Assembly (NCBI GenBank): GCA_026984045.1
Contig: JALSSV010000102.1
Coordinates: forward strand, 1-64,000
Direction: 5' to 3'
Length of the DNA stretch: 64,000 nt
From: Chromatiales bacterium
GTDB lineage: Bacteria > Pseudomonadota > Gammaproteobacteria > UBA6429 > Thiohalophilaceae
Position numbers and translations under genes: made by a program. This document shows positions 1 through 5,683 of this stretch, in pieces. Positions within the stretch are counted from its first letter, which is position 1. Every line of letters starts with the position of its first letter. The notes under the pieces are model-generated. The model searched no databases, was not told the DNA's origin, and was given only the letters and a program-made list of their open reading frames with translations.

Positions 1-150
1 CTTGGCCAGGGCGTCATCGATCTTCTTGGCCTTGAAGGCGCTCTTGGGCCAGGCGGCGAGCACGGCGCGCGGAGTCAGCAGGCCGGCGCCCACGGCCACG
101 GCCACGGCGGTGCCGGCCAGCGAGCCTTTCAGGAAAGTTCTGCGTTGCAT
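1..150 (-). CDS. soxY: SoxY, thiosulfate oxidation carrier protein (5' part only)
   Basis: Only the first 50 codons are present; the gene runs off the left edge. The product starts with a twin-arginine signal (RRTFLKG at residues 3-9), a hydrophobic Ala/Gly/Val stretch and a cleavage region ending near LAAWPK, the usual N-terminus of SoxY. SoxY, paired with SoxZ, carries sulfur intermediates on a C-terminal Cys in the periplasmic Sox cycle; that part lies outside the window. The ATG at 150 is chosen because AAGGAGG lies about 8 bases upstream and the Tat signal begins there. Further upstream in-frame starts would add a basic extension without export features. A sigma-54 promoter and a palindrome lie directly upstream. 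Identity rests on the N-terminus alone. Confidence 0.8.
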   Translation of the reverse strand, partial: MQRRTFLKGSLAGTAVAVAVGAGLLTPRAVLAAWPKSAFKAKKIDDALAK

Positions 151-184: not shown

Positions 185-200
185 GGCAAGGAACGGGCCA
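185..200 (-). promoter_or_regulatory. Sigma-54 (-24/-12) promoter for soxY
   Basis: On the minus strand the sequence reads TGGCCCGTTCCTTGCC. This fits the RpoN consensus TGGCACG-N4-TTGCW, with the invariant GG and GC exactly 10 bases apart. Transcription would start near 174, giving a leader of about 24 bases before the soxY ATG. The nearby NtrC-type activator gene and the palindrome about 100 bp upstream support the call. Confidence 0.7.
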
Positions 201-260
201 GTTGGGAGGAGATGAAAAATCAATGACTTGTAGTTGATTGAGAACACACGAAATCAGAAC

Positions 261-290
261 CATCGTGCATTTTGCACGATGTATCGTGCA
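261..290. promoter_or_regulatory. Palindromic operator, candidate enhancer for soxY
   Basis: A perfect 9-bp inverted repeat with a 3-base centre (CATCGTGCA-TTT-TGCACGATG, 261-281) is followed at 283-290 by a third copy of ATCGTGCA. It sits 85-115 bp upstream of the predicted sigma-54 start, where activator dimers normally bind. A terminator for the upstream coiled-coil gene is the alternative, but no T-run follows on the minus strand. Confidence 0.55.
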
Positions 291-299
291 AAACGGGAA

Positions 300-563
300 T
301 CACTTGAGGTCGTCGCGGATCCGCTTGAAGCCCTTGAGGAGGGCCTCGCCGGCCTCGGCCAGCGAATCCAGCGCTTCCTTGCCGGCTTCGGCGGCGTCCC
401 TTGCGGCACTTTCGAGGCGCGGCTGGAGCTTTTCCCACTGCGTTTCCAGTTCCTCGAATTCGTCGCGCAGCTCGGCCCTGGCCAGGTGCATCTGTACCCG
501 CAGCTCGTCCCGGTATTGCCTCAGATCGTTGAGCAGGGATTCCAGCTTTTCGTCGAGTTCCAT
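300..563 (-). CDS. Small coiled-coil protein of unknown function
   Basis: An 87-residue soluble protein without signal peptide or membrane segment. Almost the whole chain is charged heptad-like helix rich in Glu, Leu, Arg and Ala, so a coiled coil is likely. I do not recognise a named family. The start at 563 is chosen because AGGAGG precedes it at good spacing; an earlier in-frame start would add a poorly structured 19-residue extension. It lies between the ClC gene and soxY on the same strand, 70 bp from the former, and the soxY promoter region begins just after its stop. No role can be assigned. Confidence 0.6.
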   Translation of the reverse strand: MELDEKLESLLNDLRQYRDELRVQMHLARAELRDEFEELETQWEKLQPRLESAARDAAEAGKEALDSLAEAGEALLKGFKRIRDDLK

Positions 564-632
564 GAGCAATCCTCCTCTGATGGGTATTCCGGTAGTGGGG
601 TTGGCCGGGGCCGATTGCAAGCCGTGGGCGGC

Positions 633-2375
633 TCACAGGCGGTAGGCGCGCTCGATGTCGTCGCGGGAGAGGGTGCCGTAGACCCGCGGCACGCCGGGCA
701 CGGTCTGGCTCACCACGTAGAGCCGTTCGGCGCCGGTCTCGTCGAGCCGCTGTTGCGCCTCGAGCAGGCTGGCGCCCAGATCGATGGCGGCGCCCTGGAC
801 GCGCTCGGCGGGAATGGCCAGCAGATCGTAGCCTGCGGCGTCGGGCTGCTCCTTGCGGGCCCGGGCCAGATCCGCGGCCGGCAGGAGGGTGTTGGGTATC
901 TCCGCGTCGCGGATCAGGATCCACTGGGGTGTGTCGGCGAGCACCCGATCCACCGCTTCGGCGGTGGCTTCCCGGGGCAGCACCGCGACCCGGCGATCCA
1001 TGACGCTGGCCACCCCGACCCGGCGCAGCGACTGGCTGACGGGGTCGTTGCGGTAGTCCAGACCCCAGCTGCGCAGCAGGCCCATGAACAGGGATTCGCG
1101 GCGGCCCATGTGGCCGGCGGTGATGGTGGCGGTGACCACCGCCAGCATGCCGGGCAGGATGAAACTGGGGTTGCCGGTCAGTTCGAGGATGGCGATGAGG
1201 CCGGCCATGGGCGCCTGCAGGGTGCAGGCCATCATGGCACCCATGCCGATCATAGCGTACAGGCCGATGGAGGCGGCCTCGTTGAAGCCGAGGGCGGTGC
1301 CGATCACGCCGAACAGGGCGCCGAAGGTGGCGCCGATGAACAGGATGGGGCCGATGGCGCCGCCGGGCAGGCCGAGGCCGATGCCGCCGGTGGTGGCCAG
1401 GATCTTCAGCCCCAGCAGGGCCAGCAGCGAGGTCCACAGCAGGTTCTCGCCGTGCAGCAGCCGGTCCACCGTGTCGTCGCCGATGCCGAGTACCTCGGGC
1501 ATGGCCAGGCCGCACAGCCCCACCAGCGCGGCGCCGAGCAGCGGTCGCAGCCATTCGGGCAGGCGGCCGCCCTCGCGGGCCACGGCGCGGAACAGGGCGT
1601 TGAAGCCCGCGCCCACCAGCCCGGCGAGCAGACCGCCGAGGAAGATCCAGGGCAGCTCGGCGAGATGGCCCAGGGTCAGCGGCGGCACCTCGAAGGCCAG
1701 GGCGCTGCCGAACACCGCGCGGGTGAGGGTGGTGGCGCTGACCGTGGCCAGGATCACCGGCGCAAAGCCGGCTACCGTGTACTCCAGCAGCAGCACCTCC
1801 ATGGCGAAGGCCGCGCCGGCCAGGGGCGTGTTGAAGGAGGCGGCGATGCCGGCGGCGGCCCCGCAGGCGGCCAGCACCCGCAGGCTGTTGCTGGGCAGCG
1901 CCAGGGCCTGCGCGGGCAGGTTGGAGGAGGCGGCGCCGAGGTGGGCGCTCGGGCCCTCGCGGCCCACCGAGTGGCCAGTGATCATGCTGATTGCACCGCC
2001 CACGAACTGCACCAGGGCGTTACGCCAGGGCAGGCGGCCCTGGTGGTAGGCCAGCCGCTCGAGGATGTGGGTGACGCCGACCCGGTGACTGCCGCTCGGA
2101 GTGAGCCGGAACAGCAGGGCGATCAGCACCCCCCCGCCGAGGGGCACCAGCAGGCGCAGCAGCGGGTCGAGCTGTTCGTAGCGTTCCGGCGGCACGCCGG
2201 GGAGCAGCTGGCGCTGGCCCCATTCCACCAGCAGGCGCAGGGTGATGATGGTGGCGGCGGCCAGCACCCCGGCGATGACGCCGAGAATCGACAGGCTCAG
2301 CATGGCGTCGGGCCGCGACAGATGCAGCCGGAAATGGTGCAGGCGCCGGGCCAGGGCCGCACGCAGGACGTTCAT
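633..2375 (-). CDS. ClC-family chloride channel/transporter with C-terminal CBS region
   Basis: A 580-residue multi-pass membrane protein. The ClC signature GREGP is at residues 138-142 and supplies the gating glutamate E140. A later anion-site segment reads GGAIGP. The C-terminal ~120 residues look like CBS domains, a common regulatory tail. Where E. coli ClcA has the proton glutamate E203 (motif IIEE), this protein has AMEV, so that Glu is Val, as in many ClC channels; passive chloride flow rather than H+/Cl- exchange is therefore possible. It starts 3 bases after the response regulator stop and is probably co-transcribed with the two-component genes. Confidence 0.9.
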   Translation of the reverse strand: MNVLRAALARRLHHFRLHLSRPDAMLSLSILGVIAGVLAAATIITLRLLVEWGQRQLLPGVPPERYEQLDPLLRLLVPLGGGVLIALLFRLTPSGSHRVGVTHILERLAYHQGRLPWRNALVQFVGGAISMITGHSVGREGPSAHLGAASSNLPAQALALPSNSLRVLAACGAAAGIAASFNTPLAGAAFAMEVLLLEYTVAGFAPVILATVSATTLTRAVFGSALAFEVPPLTLGHLAELPWIFLGGLLAGLVGAGFNALFRAVAREGGRLPEWLRPLLGAALVGLCGLAMPEVLGIGDDTVDRLLHGENLLWTSLLALLGLKILATTGGIGLGLPGGAIGPILFIGATFGALFGVIGTALGFNEAASIGLYAMIGMGAMMACTLQAPMAGLIAILELTGNPSFILPGMLAVVTATITAGHMGRRESLFMGLLRSWGLDYRNDPVSQSLRRVGVASVMDRRVAVLPREATAEAVDRVLADTPQWILIRDAEIPNTLLPAADLARARKEQPDAAGYDLLAIPAERVQGAAIDLGASLLEAQQRLDETGAERLYVVSQTVPGVPRVYGTLSRDDIERAYRL

Positions 2376-2378
2376 GAC

Positions 2379-3742
<1,364 letters not shown>

Positions 3743-3746
<4 letters not shown>

Positions 3747-5683
3747 GGTGTCTTGCGGGCCAGTCGGGGCAGTTCCAGGCGGGCCTCGGTACCGCCTTCG
3801 GGGAGGTTGTCCAGGTGCAGGGTGCCGCCGTGGCGCTCGACGATCCCCAGGCTGATGGACAGGCCGAGACCGCTGCCCTCGCCCTCCGCCTTGGTGGTGA
3901 AGAAGGGATCGAAGATCCGATCCCGGTGTTCGGCCGGGATGCCTGCACCCCGATCCCGTACGCTGATTATAAGCCGCTCATCCCTTTCGCGGGCCGTCAC
4001 GTCGACCTGCCCGCCATCGTCGCTGGCCTGGATGGCGTTGAGCAGCAGGTTCACCAGGGCCTGCTGCAACTGGTGGGCGTCGCCCTCGAACGTGCCGGCA
4101 GTGCAGTCGAGGCGCAGTGCCACATGCCGGCTGCGCGCCGCCTGGCGCACCAGGGCCAGGGTCTTCTCCAGCCAGGGGCAGACCTCGATGGAGCCATAGG
4201 TGGGCGGCACCTGGCGGGCGAAGTTGAGGATCCCCTGCACGATCTGCGAGGCGCGCAGGGTCTCCTCACGCAGGGAGGCCAGGTCGGCCTGCAACTGGCG
4301 GCAGGTCTCGGCGTCGAGGCGGCCGTCGGCGCACTGCAGATCCCGTTCGATGAGCCGGGCATAGCTGAGGATGTTGTTGAGGGGGTTGTTCAGCTCGTGA
4401 CCGATGCCGGCGGCCATCTGGCCGATGCTGGCCAGCTTGTTGCTCTGCAGGGCCATGTGCCTTGCCCGGTCGCGTTCGGCCTCGGCCGCATCCAGGGTGT
4501 CGCTCAGGTAGTTGAAGGCCCGGGCCAGTTCGCGCACTTCGTCGATGGGCTGATCGGTGGCCACGTGCTGGCGGTGCTCGCCGTCGGCGAAGCGCTCGAT
4601 GCGCCCGGCCAGGGCGCGCAGGGGGCGGGCGATGCGCCGCGCGCCGAGAGCCGACAGCAGCAGGGTCAGCAGCAGGGCGGTGGCGGCGAAGGCGGCGATG
4701 CCGAGGCGGATGCGCTCGAAGGGCGCGGCCATCAGCGCCGCGTCGCTGCGCAGGGCCAGGTGCCATTCGGTGAGCTGGTTGGGCCAGGGCAGCCAGGTGG
4801 TGTAGTGCACCAGGTGCCCCGCGCCGTCGCGCCAGACTCCGTCCGGCCGGGCTTCCAGGCGGTCGAGCCAGGCGTCCTTCCAGGGGGCCTGGAAGTAGTC
4901 GATGCCGGTGCGCAACTGGGCGAAGCGCCGCTCGAGGGCGTCGCTGTAGAGCACCGTGGGGCCGTCGGGATGGCGATCCGGGTCCGATTCGATGAGCAGC
5001 AGTTCCCCATCGTAGAGCCGCGGCGTGTGATCGAGGATCTTGTCGAGCTGATCGCCGAGCAGGGTCAGGGCCACGGCGCCGACGAAGCGGCCCTGGTGAT
5101 GGAGGGGCACCACGGCGTCGCGCAGGCGGAAGGAATGGTTGAGTTCGTTGCGGTTGTGGGGCAGGTACAGGGCCGTGACTTCGTCGGGCGGGGCCTCGCG
5201 CAGGCCGCGCAGGAAGTCGGGATCGACGATCTCCTGCTCCACGTAGCGCAGGCCGCCCAGGCTTTCGTAGAGCGGCCGGCCGGTGTGCTGGCGGGTGACC
5301 TTCACCAGGCTGTTGCCCTGGGCGTCGAGCAGGCGCAGGACGAACACGCCCGGAATGAGGGTGCGAAAGCCTTCGAAATCGCGGTTCAGGGCCGCGCGCC
5401 GGGGCGAGAGATCCGCCGGCGTGCGGCCATCGGCGAGCGCGCCGAGCAGCGGCAGGGCCTCCTGCACCGCCGGGGTGCGGGCGATGCCCAGGGCCAGTTC
5501 GCGGCCGGCGGCCAGTTGCCGGCTGAGGGTGCCCGAGAGGTGCTCGAGCTGGGTGAGGATCTCTCGATCCACGTCCCGCTGGTAGCTGGCCTGGCTGTAG
5601 TAGGTCATTCCCAGGGTCAGGGCCGTGAGCGGCAGGACGGTGGCCAGCAGGACCCAGAGGAAGATGTGGCTGCGGATGCGCAT
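3743..5683 (-). CDS. Sensor histidine kinase with periplasmic dCache-like domain
   Basis: 646 residues. An N-terminal membrane helix (about 8-28) and a second near 325-345 enclose a periplasmic region of roughly 290 residues resembling a double-Cache ligand sensor of the DctB type. A HAMP segment follows. The dimerisation/phosphoacceptor helix contains H429 in GIGHELNNP, and the ATPase domain shows the N box (LVNLLLNAIQA), DRGAGIP, FFTTK and GSGLGLSIS. It is the cognate kinase of the overlapping NtrC-type regulator. The ligand cannot be read from the sequence; small organic acids are typical for this sensor class, but a sulfur compound is conceivable beside soxY. Confidence 0.92.

Follow-up and report, generated by a model that had tools for sequence, protein, structure and literature searches.

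The window analysed here is a stretch of 64,000 nucleotides from a Chromatiales bacterium of the family Thiohalophilaceae, and its first position is the edge of a contig (G000:C102:1). The features considered are the following.

1-150, minus strand: soxY, first 50 codons with a Tat signal, ATG at 150-148, truncated by the contig edge
185-200, minus strand: -24/-12 sigma-54 promoter element TGGCCCGTTCCTTGCC (TGGCCCG-TTCC-TTGCC), 34 bp before the soxY ATG
218-230, plus strand: IHF-type core AATCAATGACTTG (WATCARNNNNTTR), a perfect core, 30 bp before TGGC
261-281, no strand: perfect UAS palindrome CATCGTGCATTTTGCACGATG, composed of CATCGTGCA-TTT-TGCACGATG, 111-131 bp upstream of the soxY ATG
270-293, no strand: second perfect palindrome TTTTGCACGATGTATCGTGCAAAA, made with the third half-site and overlapping the first
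300-620, minus strand: small protein of 106 aa with a weak sll1863-type match
633-2375, minus strand: ClC-type chloride channel or antiporter
2379-3746, minus strand: NtrC-type response regulator, the proposed activator (REC, sigma-54 AAA+ with GAFTGA, HTH_8)
3743-5683, minus strand: sensor histidine kinase, the proposed partner of the regulator (periplasmic domain probably dCache, HAMP, HisKA, HATPase)

The genes encoding SoxY, the 106-aa protein, the ClC channel, the regulator and the kinase are thus all on the same strand. Since the contig begins where the window begins, just 50 codons of soxY are present. The 50 residues encoded are identical to the N-terminal 50 residues of the full SoxY encoded on contig C11 of the same genome; the match of the fragment to TIGR04488 is weak because the fragment is short. 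Misassembly at the contig edge was considered and ruled out, since regulator and soxY are arranged in this way within long contigs of G055, G008, G014 and G036. The ClC channel and the sll1863-like protein (300-2375) separate the regulator from soxY only in the host genus and a few relatives, most relatives having no channel at this position. The 106-aa sll1863-like protein also adjoins the regulator or the channel in L068, L070 and L072.

The near-consensus -24/-12 promoter reported in the first-pass annotation was confirmed at 200-185, 34 bp from the ATG where 35 bp had been given. The GG and GC of the element are 10 nt apart, the spacing required of sigma-54 -24/-12 elements, and the usual 12-nt distance predicts a soxY transcript start near position 174. 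The perfect palindrome reported about 100 bp upstream of soxY was located at 261-281, and its 17-bp core (TCGTGCA-N3-TGCACGA) begins 79 bp before TGGC. The third half-site was also present as described and completes the second perfect palindrome at 270-293; the two palindromes have one arm in common, the distal arm of the first. The IHF core at 218-230, absent from the first-pass annotation, lies between the sigma-54 element and the palindromes. Perfect inverted repeats in the window with arms of at least 9 and a spacer of no more than 10 amounted to 28 listings, nested ones counted and representing about a dozen distinct places, compared with 3-13 in five shuffles. Perfect inverted repeats are therefore not rare in the window and the palindrome by itself is weak evidence; it is conservation across genomes that argues decisively for its non-randomness. 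Elsewhere in the host genome, an exact match to the core was found only on contig C79, in what looks like coding sequence.

The leaders of 28 soxY copies of the window type were compared, drawn from well over a dozen genera with several genomes per genus, so that the counts are not independent. The UAS was found within 2 mismatches in 23 of the 28 leaders (0.03 in shuffles), those missing it being L075, L079, L090, L092 and L094, mostly from more distant genomes. The sigma-54 core TGGC-N7-TTGC was exact in 20 of the 28 (0.21 in shuffles), and every leader had it when one mismatch was allowed (4.0 in shuffles). The IHF core with at most one mismatch was detected in 22 of the 28 leaders (7.6 in shuffles); its typical position is 30-32 bp ahead of TGGC. 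The TGCA half-site distal to the promoter was kept in most leaders. The UAS lay 60-90 bp from the promoter in 21 of the 28 leaders, with 0 in shuffles. The distance from UAS to TGGC was mostly 67-70 or 78-81 bp, two classes that are one helical turn apart, and this phasing is as would be expected for an enhancer acting via DNA looping. When the UAS was searched for with at most one mismatch in 37 genomes of the family, 32 sites were obtained, 22 of which precede a soxY or soxY-like gene (manual count); the same search with the pattern reversed as a control yielded a total of 9. About 75 kb separate the regulator gene from soxY in G002 and G019, yet the UAS and promoter remain at soxY, and the comparison shows at the level of sequence that the motif follows soxY. 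The occurrence of both elements in orthologous leaders supports the earlier proposal that soxY is under sigma-54 control with a palindromic enhancer.

The regulator contains a receiver, a sigma-54 AAA+ domain with GAFTGA and a Fis-type HTH, and the gene for the paired kinase is alongside, in agreement with the complete NtrC-type activator previously described. The first-pass annotation also named a dCache kinase; Pfam calls no Cache domain in the kinase of the window. The periplasmic part comprises about 300 aa and dCache_1 matches 6 of 16 kinase orthologues, results suggesting that the sensor is probably a double Cache. A phmmer search of the sensor domain against the PDB returned no match, and a single-sequence fold (pLDDT 38) was of no use. 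The host genome encodes one copy of rpoN. Most genomes of the host's family, which consists of sulfur-oxidising bacteria, encode an orthologue of the regulator, and orthologues also occur in some other families of the same class. These proteins are 57-85% identical to the window regulator and form one supported clade, and their genes in most cases immediately precede soxYZ. A scan of named genomes identified relatives just 37-48% identical, nearly all from other groups. The comparative evidence supports the link from kinase and regulator to soxY that had been drawn from proximity.

The host genome encodes about ten other NtrC-type regulators, one of them a soxYZ-linked sister, so cross-regulation is possible. 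The sister two-component system is on contig C61 (L097:5750-10860; G000:C61:41750-46860), where the regulator is 53% identical to that of the window and the system has as neighbours a divergent soxYZ, the third soxYZ of the genome, and a gene of the DsrE family. A strong sigma-54 element is present in the leader of the sister-linked soxY, and TGGTGCA-N3-TGCACCA precedes the kinase of the sister system.

The second soxY of the host genome is part of a soxX-soxY-soxZ-soxA operon on contig C11 (G000:C11:2046-2510, L098) and differs from the window soxY at one position within the first 150 bases. Neither the UAS nor the exact sigma-54 core was found in the soxY leaders of 14 soxX-operon copies, and neither element was found in the 300 bases before soxX. 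The first-pass expectation of RpoN-dependent thiosulfate oxidation consequently reaches too far, the second soxY being in an operon without the elements. The absence of the elements from the soxX operon and their presence before the extra soxYZ indicate that sigma-54 most likely controls an inducible dosage of SoxYZ and not the whole Sox pathway. The two soxY copies within one genome were 96-99% identical in 4 of 6 genomes and 79% and 85% identical in the others; soxY of different genera is 67-80% identical. Near-identical soxYZ pairs with different promoters were observed in the host genome and also in G008, G002, G019 and G026. The simplest reading is that gene conversion keeps the soxYZ products alike while the promoters stay separate. 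Many assemblies, including the contig of the window, end 120-160 bases into soxY, and gene conversion of twin soxYZ copies would explain why assemblies break inside the gene. Homogenised twins would also explain why the switch is easily missed.

Taken together, we consider it very probable that the extra SoxYZ copy has a dedicated sigma-54 switch run by the neighbouring kinase and regulator. The signal detected in the periplasm by the kinase (3743-5683) would presumably be thiosulfate or a different reduced sulfur compound, and the kinase would in response phosphorylate the NtrC-type regulator (2379-3746). The regulator would then bind the enhancer of three half-sites at 261-293 (core TCGTGCA-N3-TGCACGA) and, with the DNA bent by IHF at 218-230, its AAA+ domain would open the RpoN polymerase complex at 185-200, with the result that soxY and presumably soxZ are transcribed. 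The proposal provides a sharp and testable predicted binding site, and suggests that it is the dosage of the carrier SoxYZ that is controlled. It may also be, although we advance this tentatively and with somewhat less than even expectation, that sigma-54 systems have been recruited to sox more than once and that the one described here drives a gene-converted second soxYZ under a separate promoter. If that is true, two promoters would serve one protein, and carrier supply could be increased without a matching rise in the other Sox components.

Sigma-54 control of sox genes is not unprecedented, as the first-pass annotation had implied. The TspS/TspR-sigma-54 system of Acidithiobacillus caldus controls the sox-II cluster (sox-I in earlier papers) and the TspR UAS is TGTCCCAAATGGGACA (TGTCCCA-N2-TGGGACA) (PMC6335251, citing Li et al. 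2017; PMC12194929). Both systems have a kinase and an NtrC-type regulator upstream of sox genes, an inverted-repeat UAS and a -24/-12 promoter. They differ in the UAS (TGTCCCAAATGGGACA for TspR versus TCGTGCA-N3-TGCACGA in the window), the sensor (the single Cache, sCache, of TspS versus the probable double Cache) and the target (soxXYZA-hyp-soxB versus the extra soxYZ). No exact TGTCCCA-N2-TGGGACA site was found in the host genome, and loci of the TspSR design were found in two genomes of another family (G207 and G062). The title of Li et al. 2017 is said to cover other chemolithotrophs, and part of the present description may already be contained there. What differs from TspS/TspR is the UAS code, the probable sensor type and the duplicated soxYZ target, the general design of the switch being already known. 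The results suggest that sigma-54 control of sulfur-oxidation genes is likely a family-wide trait outside Acidithiobacillus.

The two systems share their logic and run in one order from kinase through regulator, UAS and promoter to the sox genes, so that the window system could be considered a genuine TspS/TspR orthologue whose UAS has drifted. A common clade of TspR and the window regulator was not rejected by the AU test (p = 0.41), and a strict independent origin from TspR was dropped for this reason. The tree, however, places TspR outside the clade formed by the window regulator and its sister (100/99), and the best match of TspR in the host genome is another regulator (44%) and not that of the window (41%). 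In addition, TspS is a protein of 501 aa with a single Cache whereas the window kinase has 646 aa, and the UAS of TspR is unrelated to that of the window. We give orthology a fairly low probability. A lower probability still is given to the sigma-54 promoter being real and served by another NtrC-type protein, most likely the C61 sister, or to both sisters acting on both soxYZ copies. The sister clade is itself linked to soxYZ, the soxY leaders of sister type contain a related TGCA-N3-TGCA core together with sigma-54 and IHF-like elements, and the TGGTGCA-N3-TGCACCA site lies ahead of the sister kinase. Nevertheless, the flanks of the core differ between the sites of the two regulators (TCG...CGA in the window versus other bases), and it is soxY copies of the window type that the exact window motif accompanies. 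The palindrome might instead be a repressor operator or the remnant of a terminator of the upstream gene, unconnected with sigma-54, as the frequency of perfect inverted repeats in the window would allow. That explanation appears highly improbable since the distance from palindrome to sigma-54 element is helically phased, the palindrome is kept even where the upstream gene differs, there is no terminator-type T-run, and the palindrome sits far upstream of the promoter.

The dedicated switch, as proposed for the extra soxYZ, resembles classical NtrC-type sigma-54 systems with IHF, such as those of NtrC and NifA, in the dimeric palindromic enhancer, the IHF site between enhancer and promoter, the -24/-12 promoter and the GAFTGA activator. 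It is unlike them in that the target is a sulfur-carrier gene with a motif specific to it. Other regulators described for sox genes are SoxR, a repressor of the ArsR type (PMC12423496), and TTHA1953, of the CsoR type (PMC10318464). The window system would be like these in placing sox genes under the governance of sulfur status; however, neither is a sigma-54 system, and SoxR represses whereas the window regulator is a proposed activator. In addition to soxY, G006 carries a divergent soxY-like gene (L203:3600-4160; G006:C12:77600-78160) that likewise has a UAS, an IHF-like site and a sigma-54 element, which suggests that the regulon can include further SoxY-like proteins.
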